Below, piece after piece: positions 7,099 to 36,958 of a stretch of 51,231 nt of DNA (within the stretch, counting starts at the first letter, position 1; the number at the start of each line of letters is the position of its first letter). The translations under genes and the position numbers were made by a program. Source of the stretch: Phycisphaerales bacterium (lineage in GTDB: Bacteria; Planctomycetota; Phycisphaerae; Sedimentisphaerales; Anaerobacaceae); assembly GCA_020352215.1 (NCBI GenBank), contig CP070675.1:4164330-4215560 (forward strand). The letters are read 5' to 3'. Below the pieces are notes generated by a model, which ran no database searches, was not told where the DNA came from, and saw only the letters and a list, made by a program, of their open reading frames with translations.

Positions 7099-7115
7099 CA
7101 CGTGCGTTGCACAAG

Positions 7116-7190
7116 TCGGGGCGACAGGACTTGAACCTGCGACCTCTTGACCCCCAGTCAAGCGCGCTAGCCAAACTGCGCCACGCCCCG
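7116..7190 (-). tRNA. tRNA-Pro (anticodon GGG)
   Basis: The minus strand folds as a full cloverleaf. The acceptor CGGGGCG pairs with CGCCCCG plus discriminator A. The D arm is GCGC..GCGC. The anticodon stem CTTGA/TCAAG encloses the loop CTGGGGG, giving anticodon GGG (proline). The T arm contains GGTTCAAGTCC. The 3' CCA is not encoded. The length is 75 nt. A TATTAT box lies about 17 nt upstream as a possible -10. A terminator follows. Confidence 0.97.
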
Positions 7191-22189: not shown

Positions 22190-23545
22190 CTAATCTGCTC
22201 TTGTACGCAGGAACAGCCAGACCCATCCGTGAGTTTCGTACTCGCGGGGCAGTCTGGCACGCAGGTTCTCCTGGCGTTGGCGAATCTCCTCCATCTCTTT
22301 CTGGATTCGCTCGAGTTCCTCCTCTGTTCGCGCGCGTGATGGGCCGTGCAGCTTCTCAGCCAACTCTCCGTAACGCTTTCTGAGCGGCTCCAGCTCCTTA
22401 CGGATCCGGTCATATTCAGCCTCCTGCTCAGGCGTAGGGTCGGCAAGGTCGGGCTTCTGGCTGGCGCGATCACCGACGAGTAGATCGAGCCAGCCGTCAC
22501 CGTTCCAATCGGCAACGCAGATCTTCGACCGGGTTCCCCTACGCACATCCTTGGGGGACTGCGCTCCGGTGGCGCTCTCACCGGGCGGCACGAGCTGGAC
22601 GGCCGAAGCCAATTCCGGCGATCGCGCAGAGCCTGTGTTGCGAAACAGCCGAACGCTGCCGTCGTCGGCGCCAACGAGCAGATCGAGGTCGCTGTCACCA
22701 TCCCAGTCGGCGGTAAACGGCCCGGCACTTCTTTCGACATCTATCGGTTTGCCGCCGACCTGGATCTGCTTTTCCTTGCCGAAGGCGTATGACTCCGGCG
22801 TCCCCGCGTTGGGCACCAGGAAGACCTTGCCGCGTATGTCGCCTATTATCAGGTCGTAGTCGCCGTCGCCATCCCAGTCGGTAACATGGGCCGCCGAGGC
22901 CGTGCCCGTAATCCCGATCGGCCTCTCCGGCGTACTCTCGAACCGTTGGCCATGGTAATTGACGAATATCCCCTCGGGTGTGTACTCGAACTTGGCGTTT
23001 CCGGCAATGAGCATCATGTTGTTCATGCCGTCCAAGAAAGCCATACTGCGGGACTCCTCTCGAATCCCGCCGCCGATGTTGATGATCTTGCCGTCCTTGT
23101 CCTTGATTATCTCGGGGGCTGCAAATGAACCGTCCGCCCTGCCCCGGAACAAGAATATCTCGCCGGGCCAAGAGCCGGAGATGATGTCACGGTATCCGTC
23201 GTTGTTAATGTCCACAACATGTGGACCGAATCCGATGCATCACCCGCTGGGCACGCGGCCGTCATCCTTGCCCTCCTTGAATTTGACCCCGGCCGCCAGC
23301 TTGGGTGAAGAGTTCGTGCCCTCATTGCGGTAGACCCAGAGGATACCGTCTCCGAACTGACCGACCAGCAGATCTTGAACTCCGTCCCCGTCAAAGTCGC
23401 AGACGAACGGTGCAGCGTGGCCTGCATCGGTGTCGATCGGCTCCCCGGCCGCCTCGATCCTGACCGGCGGCGCCAAGTCCGGCGCCAAAGCGGCGCCTTC
23501 AGCCGGGATCAGTCCCGCCAAAACAAATAGAAATGTTCTCAGCAT
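22190..23545 (-). CDS. FG-GAP/VCBS repeat secreted protein interrupted by one in-frame UGA (possible selenoprotein)
   Basis: The start at ATG 23545 has GAGGAG nine bases upstream and a signal peptide (RTFLFVLAGLIPAEGAALA). FG-GAP/VCBS beta-propeller blades follow: FVCDFDGDGVQDLLVGQFGDG, VDINNDGYRDIISGSWPGEI, VTDWDGDGDYDLIIGDI, TADWDGDSDLDLLVGAD and VADWNGDGWLDLLVGD. A helical, charged segment (RIRKELEPLRKRYGELAEK) and LPREYETHGWVWLF end it. Codon 102 is TGA (23242-23240) within VPSG-stop-CIGFG, and the same frame continues for 349 more codons with intact blades. Total 451 residues if UGA is decoded. Options are selenocysteine, a disabling point mutation, or a sequence error. The C-terminal part could also be expressed from the GTG at 23215. 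Confidence 0.85.
23210..23226 (-). promoter_or_regulatory. SECIS-like hairpin after the in-frame UGA
   Basis: On the coding strand GTCCACA-TGT-TGTGGAC is a perfect 7-bp stem with a three-base loop, beginning 13 nt after the UGA, with the loop 20 nt from it. The second loop base is G. A small apical loop with an early G, 16-37 nt past UGA, is what published descriptions of bacterial SECIS elements require. It lies inside coding sequence, as bacterial SECIS elements do. Confidence 0.45.
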
Positions 23546-23906
23546 AACTCGTGCTCCTCTATGTGGCACATCTGCCTATCGATGAAAGTCACAACCTGAG
23601 ATTGTATATCTTTTGGCAGCGATGCCAAACCTATCGTTTCCCATGTTATCGTCTGATCAGCAGCGCACAGAATGAGTGGGGCCGCGCGGAGCAGCAGCTT
23701 GCGTCTATTCATTAGCCAACCCACCATCAATCTCCCTTCCAACCACTGTTTATATGGTTTCGGCATAGATGCCCGACTCGCATTGTCATGTCGAGCCCGT
23801 TCGAGACATCCGGTCACACACTTTGCTCGTTCTATGTGACGGCTTGGTTGTGATAGAAGTCACTGCGATACTGTTACAAATGTTCGCTCACTTGACTTGG
23901 GCCTGC
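23546..23906. other. Intergenic region, no supported gene
   Basis: It carries the ribosome site of the FG-GAP gene. A minus-strand frame (NRRKLLLRAAPLILCAADQTI...) overlaps the FG-GAP start but has no ribosome site or family resemblance. Nothing else is seen. Confidence 0.35.
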
Positions 23907-26141: not shown

Positions 26142-27305
26142 TCACGGCAGACGGCCCGGGAAGATCTCCTGTAGCGTGACTGCGACGTCCACGCGTTCAG
26201 CGCCCCGCATGATTCCAAGAGTGAGCTTTGTGCCCGCCGGCCGTGACCAAAACCGGCTAAGTGGCAAAACCCTCGGATCTGTCTGCCACTTTGTCGCATC
26301 CAGTCCGTCGATACTGAGCAGAATGTCGCTGTTGCGAATCCCGGCTTCGTATGCGGGTCCGGCCTCCACCACGTGCGCTACAAGGTCGGCGCTTGTCGCA
26401 TCTTTCGGCGCAAAGGCAGCCCCGAGTCTGTTGTAGTTATAATCTGCAGGTGTCACAGCAGAAGTATCGGTCTTCAGGTACATCTTCCCGTTCTTTGCAT
26501 CCACGAGCAAAATGAGCTGACGCAGGGCGTACATACCCAGGGTCGCGCCGTAATCTTCCCCGACGAAAGCCTGTGCATCTACATTCTTGTCGTTGATTGG
26601 TACCTCCCGGAGGACAAGCCCGCCCATGCGTACTTCGTTTGCCCACTTTTCCTCCGTGACGTACACTCCTGCGGCCGGAGAAAACAGGGCAGAGACGGTC
26701 GAGGGCCGGCCGGGATGCTCGCGGACCCACTGGCCCCATCGCCGCGAATTCAGGTGTACGCCGCCCGGAGCCCCGCTGTCGATCAGAACTGCCTCCCTTT
26801 TCCCGGCATTCTCTGATATCTCCGCGATGAGGCAGTTGGAGTCTGGACGGACAGTCCAACACAGCCACTGTGAGACATCTGTCGCCAATTCGCTCCGTAT
26901 CTCTATCTCTCTGCTACCGACTCGGATTTCGACGACGCAATGGCTGATGCCTCCCCATCCCAACACTCCGTGGATTTTGGGCCGGATGTAACTGGGTAAA
27001 TCAACGACCGCGAAGCGCAGTGTGCTGGTGGTCTCCCCGATCTCCAGAGAGCATCTCTCTGCCAGAGCGAACATCACTTTCCCGGGCTCGGGCTTGATGT
27101 CTTTCGGGGGCTCTTTCAACTTCAGACCAAGCTGCACTGCGGCCCTGCGAAACAGGATTGGTAACTCCGCTCCGGTATCCAATGCAAGGCGGACGGGATG
27201 ACCGTTGATTTTGGCGTCGAATGACATCCGTTCTTCAGCGGCGGTTGCGACGCCCGTCAAGAAACAGGCACCTATTAGAACCGACAACAGAATTCGTCCA
27301 CCCAT
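26142..27305 (-). CDS. Secreted retropepsin-like aspartic protease with PDZ domain
   Basis: A signal peptide (ILLSVLIGACFLTGVATA) precedes two aspartyl-protease-like halves: RLALDTGAELPILF with Asp43 in DTGA, and AVLIDSGAPGGVHL with Asp in DSG. A PDZ domain (about 300-387) ends the protein, with VVEAGPAYEAGIRNSDILLSIDG and KLTLGIMRGAERVDVAV. This architecture (two retropepsin-like lobes plus PDZ) is known from bacterial envelope proteases. 387 aa is full length. It is likely periplasmic; the substrate is unknown. Its 5' end overlaps a truncated paralogue ORF by 31 bp. Confidence 0.88.
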   Translation of the reverse strand: MGGRILLSVLIGACFLTGVATAAEERMSFDAKINGHPVRLALDTGAELPILFRRAAVQLGLKLKEPPKDIKPEPGKVMFALAERCSLEIGETTSTLRFAVVDLPSYIRPKIHGVLGWGGISHCVVEIRVGSREIEIRSELATDVSQWLCWTVRPDSNCLIAEISENAGKREAVLIDSGAPGGVHLNSRRWGQWVREHPGRPSTVSALFSPAAGVYVTEEKWANEVRMGGLVLREVPINDKNVDAQAFVGEDYGATLGMYALRQLILLVDAKNGKMYLKTDTSAVTPADYNYNRLGAAFAPKDATSADLVAHVVEAGPAYEAGIRNSDILLSIDGLDATKWQTDPRVLPLSRFWSRPAGTKLTLGIMRGAERVDVAVTLQEIFPGRLP

Positions 27306-30293: not shown

Positions 30294-31247
30294 TCAGCTC
30301 ATCAGGCCTTCGTGCCTAAGCCAATCGACAAACTCGGCAAGCCCTTCTTCAAAGTTCGTGGCGGGATCGTAACCCAGTTCGGCAGTGGCTTTAGTGACGT
30401 CGGCGTAGGTGCGTTCGACGTCACCCGGTTGGGGTGGGAGATGTTCTTTGACAGCTTTCTTGCCCAGCGCGATTTCGATTTTGGCTACTAGATCGTTGAC
30501 TGATATGGGCCTGGACTCACCGAGGTTGTAGATTTTGAAACCGCCGGCTTTGTCTATTGCTGCAACGGTACCTTGTATGATGTCGTCAATGTATGTGAAG
30601 TCACGCATCATGGTGCCGTCACCGTACACGGGTATAGGCTTGCCCTGTTCGATTAAGCTGGCGAATTTGTGGATAGCCAGATCCGGTCTTTGCCGAGGGC
30701 CGTAGACAGTGAAGAACCGCAGGCAGGTTATGGCGATTCCGCAGAGATGGTGATATGTGTGGCAGATAAGCTCACAGGCCTTTTTCGTAGCCGCATAGGG
30801 GGAGATTGGAAAGTCCACGTTGTCGTCTTCGGAGAAGGGGACTTTTTTGTTGTTGCCGTAGACGCTCGAGCTTGAGGCGAAGATGAACCGTTGCACGTTG
30901 TGTTTCTTAGCCGCCTCGAGCAGGACGATTGTTCCGTTCACGTTAACGTCAGCGTACAATTGCGGCTGAGCGATCGATGGTCTTACGCCGGCCCTGGCGG
31001 CCAAGTGCACAATCGTATCGATTCCTCCGGTCGTAGCCTCCTCGACCGCTGACCTGTCACGGATGTCTGCCTCGATCAACTGAAAGTTGCTGTTATTCTG
31101 ACAGCCGGTGATGTTTCTGCGTTTGATCTTGGGGTCGTAGAAGTCGTCGAAATTGTCGAGGCCGATCACCTGCCGGCCGTCGGCAAGGAGACGCTCGCTG
31201 AGGTGTGAGCCGATGAAGCCGGCCGCACCTGTCACTAATACCTTCAT
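30294..31247 (-). CDS. UDP-glucuronate 4-epimerase-type NAD-dependent epimerase
   Basis: The start is ATG 31247 (KVLVTGAAGFIGSH) with GAGGGG upstream; the longer frame to 31439 overlaps the neighbouring gene. Extended SDR features: the TGAAGFIGSH NAD site (6-15), DNFDDFYDPKIKRRNI typical of GalA-forming epimerases, SSSVYGNN, and YAATKKACE holding the catalytic Tyr-x3-Lys. Members convert UDP-GlcA and UDP-GalA at C4. 317 aa. It is the last gene of the minus-strand sugar-nucleotide operon, 14 bp after the small membrane protein. Strict substrate choice is inferred from the FYD..K..N signature. Confidence 0.9.
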   Translation of the reverse strand: MKVLVTGAAGFIGSHLSERLLADGRQVIGLDNFDDFYDPKIKRRNITGCQNNSNFQLIEADIRDRSAVEEATTGGIDTIVHLAARAGVRPSIAQPQLYADVNVNGTIVLLEAAKKHNVQRFIFASSSSVYGNNKKVPFSEDDNVDFPISPYAATKKACELICHTYHHLCGIAITCLRFFTVYGPRQRPDLAIHKFASLIEQGKPIPVYGDGTMMRDFTYIDDIIQGTVAAIDKAGGFKIYNLGESRPISVNDLVAKIEIALGKKAVKEHLPPQPGDVERTYADVTKATAELGYDPATNFEEGLAEFVDWLRHEGLMS

Positions 31248-31261
31248 AGCCTGCCCCTCTG

Positions 31262-31627
31262 CTACGCCGCGTAGATTATGACGGCCCCGATGATCAGGAT
31301 CAAAACAGCAATGCTCCGGACGACCAGAGCCGATTGCTTCAGGAACCAATCGATCATGGGTGTCGTTCTTTTGGGACCAAGCGCGAATGTCAGAAGACCC
31401 GCCAGCAGGAACAGGACTCCGAAGCAGCCTATCACCCACGGCATGTCACACTCCCTCGCTGCGAGCAAAAAGACAATCGCCAGCGCAAAGCGAGTCAGCG
31501 CTGCCAGGTATATGCGTTTTCCTTTCCTGAAGAATTGCAGCAGAGGCCTGAACACGGCGGGTTTCAGCAGGACCACAAGGCCGAGGCACACAAAGGCCAC
31601 GCCGAGTATCTTTATCACAAGCTCCAT
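31262..31627 (-). CDS. Small three-to-four-helix membrane protein (121 aa)
   Basis: Helices: VIKILGVAFVCLGLVVLLKP, LTRFALAIVFLLAA, VIGCFGVLFLLAGLLTFALG, and SIAVLILIIGAVIIYAA. The RKGKRIYLAALTRF segment lies between the first two. It resembles an uncharacterised conserved small membrane family. It sits between galU and the epimerase with 10- and 14-bp gaps, so it is surely in the operon. Function unknown. Confidence 0.8.
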   Translation of the reverse strand: MELVIKILGVAFVCLGLVVLLKPAVFRPLLQFFRKGKRIYLAALTRFALAIVFLLAARECDMPWVIGCFGVLFLLAGLLTFALGPKRTTPMIDWFLKQSALVVRSIAVLILIIGAVIIYAA

Positions 31628-31637
31628 AATCGCTCCC

Positions 31638-32504
31638 TTACGTATCGTCCGCCAAACGCTTTATGTATTTCCGCAGACCCGTGGCAATATCGTCACGCCT
31701 GAGCGCGAACTCGATATTTGCCCTTATGAATCCTTCTTTGTTGCCAATGTCACATCGTCTTCCTGCCAACCGCAACCCGTACACGGGTCGCTTTTTCACC
31801 ATAATGCGCAAAGCCTCTGTGAGCTGGATTTCCCCTCGTTCGTCGAGGCTTACCTGTTCTATGCAGCGGAAGATGTCGGGTGTCAGCAGGTACCTGCCCG
31901 AGATCGCAAGATTGGACGGGGCCTGTTCGGGCGACGGTTTCTCGACGAAATCCCTTATTTTGTAAACCCCGGGCTCGATCTCTTCGCCATCTATGACTCC
32001 ATACCGGCTCACCCTGCTGGGCTCCACTTCTTCGAGCAGGACAAGCGGATCGCCCAGCCGCTCGAACGATTCCACCAGCTGCTTTGTCGCCGGCTTGTCG
32101 GCGTCTATTACGGTGTCACCAAGCAGCACCGCAAAGGGCTCTTCCTGCACATGGTGTCGGGCACAGTACACGGCGTCGCCGAGCCCCTTCATTTGCTTTT
32201 GCCAGACAAAGTGGATATCTGCCAATTCCGATATTTGGCGAACCTGTTGCAGTTCGGCCTCTTTGCCGTTCTCGAGCAATTGGCTCTCCAGTTGAAAGCT
32301 ACGGTCGAAGTGCTCTTCGATCGAGCGTTTTCCCTTGCCGATAATCATCAGGACATCGGTGATCCCGGAGCCGGCCACTTCTTCCACGACGTACTGGATC
32401 ACGGGAGTGTCGACAATCGGCAGCATTTCCTTAGGTTGTGACTTCGTGGCGGGCAAGAAGCGAGTTCCGAAACCCGCTGCGGGGATAACTGCTTTGCGAA
32501 CCAT
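31638..32504 (-). CDS. galU: UTP--glucose-1-phosphate uridylyltransferase (GalU type)
   Basis: N-terminal nucleotide-binding loop AVIPAAGFGTRFLPATKSQPKEMLP, then GSGITDVLMIIGKGKRSIEEHFD, QKQMKGLGDAVYCARHH, FAVLLGDTVID and VEKPSPEQAPSNLAISGRY, all signatures of bacterial UDP-glucose pyrophosphorylase. 288 aa. It joins UTP with a sugar-1-phosphate. Position 15 bp after a glucuronokinase-like gene raises the possibility that GlcA-1-P is also accepted (inference). The symbol rests on family resemblance. Confidence 0.93.
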   Translation of the reverse strand: MVRKAVIPAAGFGTRFLPATKSQPKEMLPIVDTPVIQYVVEEVAGSGITDVLMIIGKGKRSIEEHFDRSFQLESQLLENGKEAELQQVRQISELADIHFVWQKQMKGLGDAVYCARHHVQEEPFAVLLGDTVIDADKPATKQLVESFERLGDPLVLLEEVEPSRVSRYGVIDGEEIEPGVYKIRDFVEKPSPEQAPSNLAISGRYLLTPDIFRCIEQVSLDERGEIQLTEALRIMVKKRPVYGLRLAGRRCDIGNKEGFIRANIEFALRRDDIATGLRKYIKRLADDT

Positions 32505-32519
32505 GCCTGGGCCTTTCTC

Positions 32520-33521
32520 TTAACCGGGAGCAATTCTCGGCTTTATCACCTTGACTTTCATCTTGCCGAGTTCTTTCTTCAGCTGCCTAAACATTTGCTC
32601 GCCCTGATACGTGCCGACGATTGCCCCGCCTGAGCCTGTGAACTTGGCGCTGGCGCCTGCCGAGCGGGCCGTCTCAACCATGCGCAAATTCTGTTCGCTC
32701 AGCCTATATAGCTTGCGTCTGCGGTCGAAGTTGGCATTGAGAACCTCTCCTATGTGGTGGACCTCGTGTTTCAGGAGGTGCCGCTTGACCCGGGCGGCAA
32801 GTTTGGCCCAATACTGCATCGCAGTGACTACCTTCGGCTCACCTCGGTTGAAGCGGTCCCGGATGTTGTTGTGAAAGACCTCTGTTGGCTCGCTGAAGTC
32901 GGCACGATAGGCCACGTAGAGCTCTGGAAGCAGCTTGGTCTCAAGTGGCTCGTAGATGCCGTAGCCTTGCCTGGTCATAATGTCTTTCGCGAAATCCATA
33001 TAGACCAGGCCTTCGTAGACTTGGATCACACGGTCCTGAAGTCCGGCTGCAATGTGGAGCTCGTCGACCTCGGCAGAGAGGACGAGGTTCGCCTGTATGT
33101 ACTTGGCAATGCTGACGCCGTAGAAGGCCATGAGTGCTCTGAGACAGGCCGTTATGATGGCGCTGGAGCCGGCCAGGCCGACGCCGTGCGGTATGTTCGA
33201 GTTATAGCGAATTGTGAAGTTCTGTTTGTGCAGCTCGATCTGGTGCTCCGAGCAGTATTCGTAGAATTTCTTCACGGTTGCTTTGAGCAGCCGAATGCCA
33301 CCGTAGTATCCGTGCAGGTTTACGTCCCTGACCAGTTCTGTAATCCCCGAGAATCGTGAATGGTCTTTCTCGCTGGGCAGTATCTCCAACTCCGGCGTCT
33401 CGTACAAAACTACCCCAGCAGAGAAATTGCTGAACGTGAAAGAGATTGTTTTGCCGAAGTATCCGTCCGATGGGTTTCCAATCAGTCCGACTCGCGGATA
33501 GGCTTTAGTACGGATAATCAT
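32520..33521 (-). CDS. GHMP kinase, glucuronokinase-like
   Basis: The start is taken as ATG 33521 (IIRTKAYPRVGLIGNPSDG) with AGGGA nine bases upstream; an upstream ATG at 33587 lacks a ribosome site. Features: GLIGNPSDGYFGKTISF, matching the N-terminus of plant glucuronokinases; the GHMP ATP motif NIPHGVGLAGSSAIITA; and the C-terminal KFTGSGGAIVGTY. The reaction would be glucuronate + ATP to glucuronate-1-phosphate. It is followed by galU and an epimerase, which could carry the product to UDP-GlcA and UDP-GalA. Other GHMP sugar kinases are alternatives. Confidence 0.85.
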   Translation of the reverse strand: MIIRTKAYPRVGLIGNPSDGYFGKTISFTFSNFSAGVVLYETPELEILPSEKDHSRFSGITELVRDVNLHGYYGGIRLLKATVKKFYEYCSEHQIELHKQNFTIRYNSNIPHGVGLAGSSAIITACLRALMAFYGVSIAKYIQANLVLSAEVDELHIAAGLQDRVIQVYEGLVYMDFAKDIMTRQGYGIYEPLETKLLPELYVAYRADFSEPTEVFHNNIRDRFNRGEPKVVTAMQYWAKLAARVKRHLLKHEVHHIGEVLNANFDRRRKLYRLSEQNLRMVETARSAGASAKFTGSGGAIVGTYQGEQMFRQLKKELGKMKVKVIKPRIAPG

Positions 33522-33612
33522 GACGCTTGTCCCTGGCTCAAACACGCAGGAGCCGACTTTGGCCGGGCGTAGCTGCGTTTCGCTCATGGCCGAAGTGACC
33601 CCGCCGATTTGG

Positions 33613-34161
33613 CTAATCGATAGTCTCTATCATATCGGTATCTATTTCCACACTGGCTGCCTGACCGAGCATATCGATTTGCAGGACCAGGCGAAAGGCA
33701 CCCTTTGTATTGACCACGATGCCTTCCAGACCAAGCAGGGGCCCTGCAATTACGCGACACATCTGGCCTATCTTTACATACTTGTGCGGTGTCAGACAGG
33801 CGCCTGCCCGAACAGCCTGCTCGATCCGCGATAGTTCGTCAAGCAGTCTCAGCTGGTCGCTCACTTCGATCAGATTGGCGACACGATTCGTTCGCAGCAA
33901 TTCGATGCGCTGGCTCTCTTGGCCGCAAAAGAACAGGTATCCCGTGAATACCGGCAATAGAGAACGCATCGTTCTGTGGCTGCGGCGCCGAACCTTCCAG
34001 GTCATCGGAAGGAAGTAGCTGATGTTCTTGCTCATCAGGTCGTGGGCCAGCGCCTTCTCGTTTCGGCTTCTCGTATGTGCGACCCACCACAAACCGGTGA
34101 AGTCCCGGATTGAGTGCGCCTCGGGCCATATCATCGGTGGATTCTCGCTTGCTTTCAGCAA
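33613..34161 (-). CDS. NusG-like (RfaH/UpxY-type) transcription antiterminator
   Basis: TTG start with AGGAG seven bases upstream. NGN domain: LWWVAHTRSRNEKALAHDL, ISYFLPMTWKV, LLPVFTGYLFF. Linker, then a KOW domain: YVKIGQMCRVIAGPLLGLEGIVV and IDMLGQAASVEIDTDMIETI. Specialised NusG paralogues travel with long polysaccharide operons and help RNA polymerase pass terminators. Here it is the second gene of the minus-strand operon, after the dehydrogenase. The binding site on DNA or RNA is not recognised. Confidence 0.9.
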   Translation of the reverse strand: MLKASENPPMIWPEAHSIRDFTGLWWVAHTRSRNEKALAHDLMSKNISYFLPMTWKVRRRSHRTMRSLLPVFTGYLFFCGQESQRIELLRTNRVANLIEVSDQLRLLDELSRIEQAVRAGACLTPHKYVKIGQMCRVIAGPLLGLEGIVVNTKGAFRLVLQIDMLGQAASVEIDTDMIETID

Positions 34162-34282
34162 CTCAATTCTCCTGCAGTTCTGTCTCGCACCTGAAATTGA
34201 TACCGAGATCGTTTGAGTCAGCGTCGGCTGGTCTGACTTGCTGACATGAAATCGGTCCCTGCATGAAAGTCCCTCGCAAATC

Positions 34283-35596
34283 CTACGCCATCACGACTTT
34301 CTTGCCGGTCGCGGCGGCTTTCTTCGTGGCGTTTCGTGTATCAACCACGAGTTTCGCGTTTCTCACAATGCAATCATAGTCGTAGTCAGTGTGGTCGGTA
34401 GCGATCAAGACCACGTCGTACCGAGCAAGCATTCTTGCAGACAGCGGCTTACTGGTCATTTTCAGGTCATGTTCGCGTTGCCTGTGTGTTCTTGGGACGT
34501 AGGGGTCGTTGTAGTCGACCTTGGCCCCTTTCCGACGCAGCAGCTCGATCAGTTCTATGGAGGGCGACTCACGTATGTCGTCTATGTCCTTCTTATAGGC
34601 CAAACCAAGTACGAGCACCTTTGCGCCCTTAAGACTCTTCTCATGCTCGTTCAGCGCATCCATCACTTTTGCGATGACGTAGTGGGGCATGTCGGTATTG
34701 ATCTCACCGGCCAGCTCGATGAAACGAGTGGCCATCCCGTATTGCCTGGCTCTCCAGGTCAAATAGAACGGATCGATAGGTATGCAGTGACCTCCGAGTC
34801 CCGGGCCCGGGTAAAACGCCTTGAAGCCGAACGGCTTGGTGCTGGCCGCCTTGACCACCTCCCAGATGTCGATGCCCATTCTGTCGAAGACGACCTTGAG
34901 TTCGTTGACCATCGCTATGTTGACACAACGATAGACGTTTTCGAGAATTTTTGCCGCCTCGGCTGCTTCGAGACTCGATACTGGGACCGTCTCGACGATG
35001 GCAAGGTTGTAGAGACTGCATGCTATGTCGCGACACCTCTTTGTGAGGCCGCCGACCACCTTGGGGATCGTCTTGGTTGTGAAATCCTTATTGCCCGGAT
35101 CTTCCCGCTCGGGCGAGTACGCCATGTGGAAGTCTTTGCCTGCCTTCAACCCACTGCTTTCGAGTATGGGTGCCATGAGCTCGCGGGTCGTGCCGGGATA
35201 GGTCGTGCTTTCGAGAACGACCAGTTGGCCGGCCTGAAGGTATTTGGCAATCGTTTCGCAGCTCTTGACGACGAATTGCATGTCCGGCTCACGGTTGTGC
35301 GTCAGCGGAGTAGGAACACAGATTAGGACCGCATCGACGCTCCTGAGACGAGCCATGTTGGTTGTGGCATGGAAGCGACGGCTATTGACAAGCTGCTTGA
35401 CTTGCGCATGAGGCACGTGTTTTATGATGCTCCGGCCGGAATTCAGCGTCTTGACCTTTTTCTCGTCGACGTCAAAACCGATCACGTTCACCCCCGCAAA
35501 GCCAAACTCCCTGGCCAGGGGCAAGCCAACGTAGCCCAGGCCGAGTACTCCAACGGTCACTCTTCTATCTTTGATCTTTTGTTTCCACTGTTTCAT
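34283..35596 (-). CDS. Nucleotide-sugar 6-dehydrogenase (WbpA/UDP-GlcNAc type)
   Basis: The start is ATG 35596 with AGGA upstream (a TTG lies one codon earlier). NAD site GVLGLGYVGLPLA (17-29), VDAVLICVPTPL, VVLESTTYPGTT, AYSPEREDPGN (a mark of the UDP-GlcNAc/UDP-ManNAc dehydrogenase branch), catalytic Cys in GLGGHCIPIDP, and GLAYKKDIDDIRESPS near the end. It oxidises C6 of a UDP-N-acetyl-hexosamine to a uronate using two NAD. 437 aa. It is the first gene of the operon. UDP-glucose as substrate cannot be excluded. Confidence 0.93.
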   Translation of the reverse strand: MKQWKQKIKDRRVTVGVLGLGYVGLPLAREFGFAGVNVIGFDVDEKKVKTLNSGRSIIKHVPHAQVKQLVNSRRFHATTNMARLRSVDAVLICVPTPLTHNREPDMQFVVKSCETIAKYLQAGQLVVLESTTYPGTTRELMAPILESSGLKAGKDFHMAYSPEREDPGNKDFTTKTIPKVVGGLTKRCRDIACSLYNLAIVETVPVSSLEAAEAAKILENVYRCVNIAMVNELKVVFDRMGIDIWEVVKAASTKPFGFKAFYPGPGLGGHCIPIDPFYLTWRARQYGMATRFIELAGEINTDMPHYVIAKVMDALNEHEKSLKGAKVLVLGLAYKKDIDDIRESPSIELIELLRRKGAKVDYNDPYVPRTHRQREHDLKMTSKPLSARMLARYDVVLIATDHTDYDYDCIVRNAKLVVDTRNATKKAAATGKKVVMA

Positions 35597-35863
35597 CAAT
35601 TCATCCTGTGCTCATACTCGGCTACCGTCGAACCTGACGCACTGCGAGAAGGCTGCAATACTCCAGTTTCACGCGGCTTCCTAAACCGGCATCCTATTTC
35701 AGTCGATTAGTTAGACTGGAGCATCAGTTTAGTCGTGCGTGCCCGAAATGTCAAAAGATTTGGCAACAGCGGCATTGGTTGTTTTTGCTTGACGCTCTGT
35801 GACCGACGATTTACCATTGAGTACATCGCTTTGTTTGGCAATTATAGTGTTTTAGGAGCAACG

Positions 35864-36958
35864 ATGGCTAAGTCCCGATCCGGATCGGCAAAGCCTCTCG
35901 GGAACCGTGTAGGACACAGTACCAACCAAAAGGTCCGCCCATCGATCCGATCCAGGCGTCTGGCCGTTCTCTTCACTTGTATCGGCAGACGAGTCTCATT
36001 ACTGAACAGTTTTCAGCGGGCGGCAAGGCAACTGAGAATAAACGCGTTGTTCTTTGGCACCGACACCAGTCAATTGAGCTCGGCACTTCAGCTGTGCGAC
36101 AAGGGCATTCGGGTCAGACCGACCACGCACCCCGGTTACATTAGAGACCTGTTGTCGATCGTCAAGGCCAACAGGGTAAAGCTGCTTGTTCCAACGGTTG
36201 ATCTGGACTTGCGATCGCTGGCTCTGAACAGATCGAAGTTCGCTGCGTTGGGCTGCCGTGTGCTCGTTTCAGCTCCGGACGTTGTCGATATTTGCCAGGA
36301 TAATCGAAAGACGTACCGATTTATGTTGAAGAACGGTTTTGATACTCCGCGTACCGTCAGCATTCGCACGGCCTCGGCAAAGATGCCAGCGGGGGGACAA
36401 CTTAGCTGGCCTTGCTTTCTGAAGCCTTGGGATGGTTACGCAAGCAGGGGAAATGCCGTGGTCAAGAATCGCAAAGAACTTCTGTTCTTTGGATCCAGAA
36501 TACCTAACGCCATCTGCCAGGAGTACATTACCGGTGCAGAGCATACCTGCGACGTATATGTCGATTTCGGCATGAAAGTCCGGTGCGTTGTGCCGCGACA
36601 GCGTATCGAGATAAGGGCCGGAGAGGTGAGCAAATGGCAGGTGGTCAAGAATCCCCACATCATGGCTGAGGCTGCAAGATTGGTCGAGGAGCTCGGGGCC
36701 GGACCTGGCGTCATTACTCTGCAACTGTTCTTGACTCCAGACGACAAGGTGAAATTCATCGAGATAAACCCGCGGTTTGGGGGCGGTGTTCCGCTGTCGA
36801 TAAAGGCCGGTGCCAACTTTCCAAAATGGATATTGCAGGAACTAACCGGCAGGAAGCCCACCGTGCGCTTCGACGGCTTCAAAGACAATCTGGTCATGCT
36901 TCGGTACGACGGCGAGGTCTGGCTTGAAAACCCTGATATGGAAAGAGCCGGTAAATGA
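35864..36958 (+). CDS. ATP-grasp domain protein, probably polysaccharide-linked
   Basis: The start is ATG 35864 with AGGAG nine bases upstream; the frame extends further but without a ribosome site. An N-terminal pre-ATP-grasp fold (LAVLFTCIGRRVSLLNSF; ALFFGTDTSQLSSALQLCD) is followed by ATP-grasp: FLKPWDGYASRGNAVV, the ICQEYITGAEHTCDVYVD lid, and KFIEINPRFGGGVPLS with the Mg-binding E..N. Such proteins ligate carboxyl and amino groups and occur in capsule clusters, for example in amino-acid decoration of sugars. It overlaps the next gene by four bases (ATGA). Specific substrates are unknown. Confidence 0.9.
   Translation: MAKSRSGSAKPLGNRVGHSTNQKVRPSIRSRRLAVLFTCIGRRVSLLNSFQRAARQLRINALFFGTDTSQLSSALQLCDKGIRVRPTTHPGYIRDLLSIVKANRVKLLVPTVDLDLRSLALNRSKFAALGCRVLVSAPDVVDICQDNRKTYRFMLKNGFDTPRTVSIRTASAKMPAGGQLSWPCFLKPWDGYASRGNAVVKNRKELLFFGSRIPNAICQEYITGAEHTCDVYVDFGMKVRCVVPRQRIEIRAGEVSKWQVVKNPHIMAEAARLVEELGAGPGVITLQLFLTPDDKVKFIEINPRFGGGVPLSIKAGANFPKWILQELTGRKPTVRFDGFKDNLVMLRYDGEVWLENPDMERAGK

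Follow-up and report, generated by a model that had tools for sequence, protein, structure and literature searches.

A UGA-containing family of FG-GAP/VCBS beta-propellers in Planctomycetota that is probably decoded with selenocysteine

A gene that is intact but for one in-frame UGA raises the question of whether that codon ends the protein or is decoded within it. Such a gene lies on the minus strand of the window, by which we mean the whole 51,231-nucleotide stretch of Phycisphaerales DNA analyzed here: 101 codons are followed by TGA, a further 349 codons and TAG, and the product carries FG-GAP/VCBS repeats (Table 1). The first-pass annotation had reported a TGA at codon 102 of an otherwise intact propeller gene, next to a cysteine codon and with the frame open for 349 codons beyond it, and translation reproduced each of these points. 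On the basis of comparative sequence analysis, we conclude that this TGA is very probably read as selenocysteine (Sec), giving a single predicted-exported propeller of 451 residues with a Sec102-Cys103 pair.

Table 1. Features of the UGA-interrupted propeller gene, in window coordinates
Feature	Position	Strand	Remarks
UGA-interrupted gene, 451-residue FG-GAP/VCBS beta-propeller protein	22190..23545	-	ATG at 23545, TAG 22190-22192
In-frame TGA, codon 102, predicted selenocysteine, context VPSG*CIGFG	23240..23242	-	
TGC, Cys103, adjoining the predicted Sec102	23237..23239	-	
Predicted bacterial SECIS	23210..23226	-	Stem 23226-23220 with 23216-23210, UGU loop 23219-23217
N-terminal hydrophobic segment, presumed signal peptide	23480..23545	-	Assigned by eye; pLDDT <50 at residues 1-16
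GAGGAG, Shine-Dalgarno-like, 8 nt 5' of ATG	23554..23559	-	
Helical hairpin insertion, residues 372-430	22256..22432	-	From the structure model
Truncated 341-aa GTG-start ORF, the gene's protein-database entry (P0001)	22190..23215	-	

The identity of the product as a beta-propeller, also proposed at first pass, is supported by Pfam matches over the cut-offs, namely FG-GAP_3 (PF13517; 89.3 bits, cut-off 26.9) and FG-GAP (PF01839; 49.8 bits, cut-off 22.1), and by a structure model that forms a beta-propeller with a pLDDT of 93. The same PF13517/PF01839 repeats are seen in FG-GAP/VCBS propellers such as integrin alpha, CRTAC1 and ITFG2, and a profile matches CRTAC1 (1.7e-08) and integrin alpha-IIb (2e-07). 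The closest folds of the model are glycosidase propellers (VIA-align, 6-15% identity), with Foldseek giving TM-scores of about 0.3 and a large rmsd; no selenoprotein is named among the fold matches listed. The window protein has no GH Pfam match, and its likeness to GH43/GH62 is one of fold only. A count of five blades is suggested by the fold matches together with the number of DG motifs, likewise five. The model places the Sec-Cys pair in a loop just before strand 107-111, and we presume from propeller topology that the pair faces away from the calcium-type DxDxDG loops and lies near the central channel. These structural data bear on the reading that the locus encodes two proteins, an N-terminal fragment of 101 residues and a second one initiated downstream at the internal GTG at 23215, which is the form taken by the database gene calls. 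Such a split would fall inside the modelled propeller, separating strand 69-72 from strand 107-111, and homologues with cysteine in place of the UGA are single full-length proteins; we consequently reject the two-protein reading, which we consider very improbable.

The alternative that UGA is a sense codon throughout the organism is contradicted by the window itself: TGA terminates 19 of the 42 long non-overlapping ORFs in a mechanical ORF list, and is thus an ordinary stop in the source genome, in agreement with the first-pass exclusion of a code change. Genes matched in other genomes likewise hold one TGA, not many. This reading is refuted, and the probability that we assign to it is negligible.

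A protein database search with the window protein gave 2136 relatives. Among the best 120 of these 2136, one is the window gene's own truncated ORF; none of the other 119 starts before query residue 104, and 105 start at residue 111. These entries have the form that gene calling would give to a gene interrupted by a UGA. When genomes were searched directly, 12 of 89 from the same family, the source genome included, gave a match at E<=1e-30, and TGA occupies a single column in all 12 rows of their alignment (A1); in one of these genomes the extreme end of the match additionally includes a TAG. At the level of the phylum (Planctomycetota, judging by how named records are labelled), a search with the window protein matched 18 of 392 genomes at E<=1e-40, 17 of them with TGA. 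With a Cys homologue (P0162) as query, 106 places were recovered in 87 of the 392 genomes at E<=1e-25, a total that was counted by hand and equals the summed match column. Exactly one TGA is present at 99 of these places (80 genomes, source genome included), always in the same kind of motif, and the other seven have a Cys codon. These phylum counts are lower bounds, since three to four candidates were scored per genome. The UGA family is far larger in scale than the first-pass annotation had suggested. That annotation had also allowed for simple mutation or sequencing error, and a recent nonsense mutation, a pseudogene or an error of sequencing or assembly at 23240-23242 can be entertained as a general possibility. 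It did not hold up: the TGA recurs in 12 of the 89 genomes of the family and in 80 of the 392 of the phylum, which excludes sequencing error in practice and, together with the covarying hairpin described below, refutes this whole class of explanation for the family, leaving it only a minute probability for the window gene.

The named records in which the closest relatives lie carry the label Planctomycetota or that of one of its orders or families. Two close relatives bear labels from outside the phylum, L047 (Abditibacteriales, on a 6.8 kb contig), which is one of the 112 hairpin sites considered below, and P0009 (Woeseiaceae); both may be misbinned, and we base no statement about taxonomic range on them. 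A plasmid collection yielded five records, all at about 30-32% identity, and no close relative.

The motifs surrounding the UGA (U) define several subfamilies: VPxG-U-CIGFGPQ, IPTT-U-CISFxPQ, PGVW-U-CTSSTPQ, which forms a large sister subfamily, and NNW-U-CIGMxPQ, which forms another. Loci L134, L139, L140, L147-L149, L165, L180, L182 and similar ones carry the PGVW-U-CTSSTPQ or the NNW-U-CIGM motif. The residue following the UGA is Cys in 113 of 114 sites and Arg in one, a count that is partly built in, as the site pattern allowed only Cys or Arg there; no UGA place was lost through it, the loci that yielded no site being Cys forms or duplicates of a place already counted. These 114 sites correspond to 112 distinct 60-mers, after two spurious TGA sites followed by Arg (L013, L060) had been dropped by rule and a genuine one (L146) kept. 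The latter (L146:779-838) is the only UGA site with a following Arg codon (TGACGC), and its core hairpin is intact. Two or more propellers of this family occur in no fewer than 18 of the 87 matched genomes, and several have two or more UGA propellers (e.g. G207, G253, G113 and G135). A tandem pair of UGA propeller genes, each with the hairpin, is found in L018:1501-4194 (= L041:4606-7299).

A hallmark expected at first pass for a Sec position was Cys in most homologues at codon 102. Full-length homologues were gathered by a search with residues 34-162, which favours uninterrupted genes and for which 120 of 147 matches were listed, and by a second search with one of the proteins so obtained; 23 chosen proteins were then aligned (A3, with P0175-P0188 left out). 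As read by eye, the Sec column of this alignment holds Cys in 19 of the 23, bearing out the expectation, Ala in two and Gly with an adjoining deletion in two (the four non-Cys proteins being P0127, P0159, P0173 and P0174), and thus the residue at this column can be lost. In proteins with Cys, the residue after it differs from one to another (C, Q, L, Y, V, N or H), which identifies the Sec/Cys column as the constrained one. At least five changes between Sec and not-Sec are needed on a FastTree phylogeny of 140 sequences. Six loci (L118-L123, from G269, G326, G438, G473, G387 and G477) belong to near-complete genomes of one genus, have the Cys form IYCCVG and give no selB match; these genomes are a natural Sec-less comparison group. 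Another Cys-form propeller, P0161 (525 aa), has WD40-type repeats in its precomputed Pfam list, which suggests a fusion of two propellers.

The second line of evidence is the RNA downstream of the UGA. In the window gene, 13 nt (UGCAUCGGAUUCG) separate the UGA from GUCCACA-UGU-UGUGGAC, and the perfect 7-bp stem with its UGU loop noted at first pass is thereby verified. As given in a 2026 review (PMC13188914), bacterial SECIS (bSECIS) elements have a loop of 3-9 nt, a stem of 4-16 bp, G in the first two loop positions, a spacing of 16-37 nt and an MFE <= -7.5. The window hairpin has a loop of 3 nt starting 20 nt past the UGA, a 7-bp stem, G as the second loop base and an MFE of -11.0 kcal/mol (45 nt), in keeping with the bacterial SECIS geometry previously claimed for it, and 105 of the 112 distinct UGA sites likewise lie within all five published limits. 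Folding energy by itself is unremarkable: for the window hairpin z is -0.87, with 31 of 200 shuffles folding equally well or better, and z ranges from -2.04 to +0.38 against shuffles in the six hairpins folded. As the energy of the window hairpin is not significant alone, the case rests on comparison. All seven pairs form in 0.6% of 2000 draws of a synonymous-codon null for the window gene alone.

This null, in which the codons of each gene are swapped for synonymous ones at its own usage and related sequences are treated as independent, was applied across the family. Over the 112 distinct sites, 547 of 560 core pairs form, against a null mean of 350 and maximum of 376 in 1000 draws, so that homologues with UGA and a conserved hairpin, the other hallmark anticipated at first pass, are present in abundance. 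All five core pairs are found in 99 of the 112 sites (null maximum 13, 1000 draws), and the 7-bp stems of the first 36 sites have 229 of 252 pairs formed (null mean 153, maximum 170, 2000 draws). Sliding the partner columns by 1 to 3 lowers pairing from 97.7% to 22-51%. With regard to covariation in the 112 sites, the 28 cells changed on both sides are equalled in none of 500 shuffles, while the number of further pair types is reached by 24 of 500; in the 36-site set neither of these weaker measures is exceptional, the corresponding figures being 31 and 292 of 500. Matched stems accompany HVVD, HVAD, RVVD, RVAD, CVMD and SVMD, and hence the compensatory changes alter the protein. Pair 21-29 alternates between A-U and G-C with at least 14 changes on a tree computed after removal of the Sec and hairpin codons; on well-supported branches there are 10 independent contrasts, of which a mean of 6.4 go the expected way, none the opposite way and 3.6 are without difference (median p 0.03). 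The seven genomic Cys forms keep 4, 3, 3, 3, 2, 2 and 2 of the five core pairs, i.e. a degraded hairpin. Judged from these alignments, the hairpin is under selection as RNA.

The third line of evidence concerns the Sec decoding apparatus. The 6.2 Mb contig of the source genome that carries the gene also encodes a tRNA-Sec with anticodon TCA (78.6 bits, gathering score 47), and profile searches of this contig recovered selA (548 bits, cut-off 268), selB (363 bits, cut-off 242) and selD (369 bits, cut-off 125), with 59 bases between the selA and selB matched stretches. Hence the genes whose presence the first-pass annotation had wished to see checked, selA, selB, selC and selD, are all there above curated cut-offs. 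In the phylum, 73 of the 80 UGA genomes have a selB match at E<=1e-70, versus 162 of the 312 others (Fisher p 7e-12), and among same-family genomes selB is over cut-off in 9 of 12 with UGA versus 22 of the 77 others (p 0.003). Six of the seven Cys genomes have no selB at E<=1e-70; the seventh, G276, has the Cys form despite selB and tRNA-Sec.

The UGA genomes include some in which the apparatus was found in part or not at all. The seven UGA genomes of the phylum with no selB at E<=1e-70 are G237, G313 and G393, where selA and tRNA-Sec were found, G219, G234 and G325, and G300. A contig-end piece of selB occurs in G073, with tRNA-Sec and no selA over cut-off, and in G080, with selA and no tRNA-Sec over cut-off. 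Searches for selA, selB and tRNA-Sec gave nothing over the cut-offs in G300 (77% complete) and in G031 (CP070678, a single 5.8 Mb contig, 87% complete), whose UGA gene (L011/L034) has an intact frame. G031 is the clearest exception, and reflects either an assembly that lacks the Sec genes or a recent loss of the Sec trait. G031 and G300, by retaining the UGA without detected Sec genes, are also what speaks for another interpretation. In it, readthrough would insert some residue other than Sec, or the UGA would for the most part end translation; the relevant product would be the short one or both, and the hairpin would serve readthrough or regulation. This interpretation sits poorly with the replacement of the UGA by Cys in 19 of 23 homologues, with the missing selB in six of seven Cys genomes and with the bSECIS geometry of 105 of 112 sites, and we regard it as improbable.

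We thus return to selenocysteine insertion, to which four observations point: conservation of the UGA, covariation in the hairpin, replacement by Cys, and co-occurrence of the Sec genes. If insertion proceeds as in other bacteria, the hairpin starting 13 nt past the UGA would be bound by SelB with its Sec-tRNA(UCA), which would deliver Sec at the ribosome. In the product, Sec presumably acts as a redox nucleophile with Cys103 as its partner, metal binding being the alternative.

Genomic context provides no functional hint, because, the propeller aside, neighbours are common to few of the 13 loci compared (some with short flanks): a cluster of overlapping ORFs on the opposite strand is present in five loci, and any other neighbour gene in at most three. 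Elsewhere in the window there are a retropepsin-like aspartyl protease domain fused to a PDZ domain (26142-27305, minus strand), a sugar-nucleotide gene cluster (30294-36958) with a GDP-mannose dehydratase-like protein, a GHMP kinase, a UDP-glucose dehydrogenase and a PylC-like ATP-grasp protein, and a tRNA-Pro (GGG) at 7115-7190 (minus strand), which is the sole RNA gene that ARAGORN and Rfam (at gathering scores) recovered in the window.

How does this family compare with known selenoproteins? The 119 prokaryotic selenoprotein families and subfamilies catalogued in 2026 (PMC13188914) include no entry named FG-GAP, VCBS or beta-propeller, and none is found in a 2022 selenoprotein list (PMC9312934) or a 2025 table of nine new families (PMC12013277); to the extent of these names, the first-pass view that a Sec-Cys pair would be new to FG-GAP/VCBS proteins stands. 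Open-access literature contained no paper on an FG-GAP/VCBS selenoprotein among the matches listed, and no NCBIfam family scored over its curated cut-off in the six proteins scanned. PMC13188914 gives a thioredoxin-like fold for most characterized selenoproteins. The bSECIS selenoproteins treated there resemble the present family in having Sec/Cys homologue pairs, a UGA with a stem-loop, and SelA, SelB, SelD and tRNA-Sec in the genome; the propeller sets ours apart, in a comparison by catalogue entry names rather than folds. Vicinal Sec and Cys residues are also known, from the same catalogue, in HgcA, the MerB-like SaoL, SaoC and KCU-star (motif CU), and in form 1 of the CopZ family (GxUC), which shares the U-C order. 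However, the listed vicinal proteins mostly have the C-U order, and their named domains are others, whereas the pair of the window protein lies in a predicted propeller loop. The planctomycetes P1 and P2 from Porphyra (PMC4807772) share the inferred phylum and the Sec machinery; the part of that report available to us names fdhA and fmdB, but no propeller. The mechanism is ordinary bacterial Sec decoding, as predicted here from sequence, while the family appears to be new when judged against the open-access literature and these lists.

Since 80 of 392 phylum genomes keep the same stop, it is probable that a large family of selenoproteins, apparently in none of the catalogues, has so far been overlooked. 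In that case gene calling cuts these genes at the UGA, and the listed database entries lack both the key residue and the first quarter of the protein. We lean towards the view that the window protein is the founding member of what are maybe the most widespread selenoproteins of Planctomycetota, secreted propellers in which a Sec-Cys pair at the channel mouth forms a new extracytoplasmic selenoenzyme or metal site. If the proposed decoding is true, about one fifth of the sampled phylum genomes would encode a selenoprotein family cut at its UGA, and selenium chemistry would extend to FG-GAP beta-propellers, which the 2026 catalogue does not name as a class. The 112-site hairpin set offers good data on how a SECIS within a coding region constrains protein evolution, and the natural Sec/Cys pairs provide a test of what selenium adds. 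The family could also help explain why many planctomycetes retain the Sec trait.
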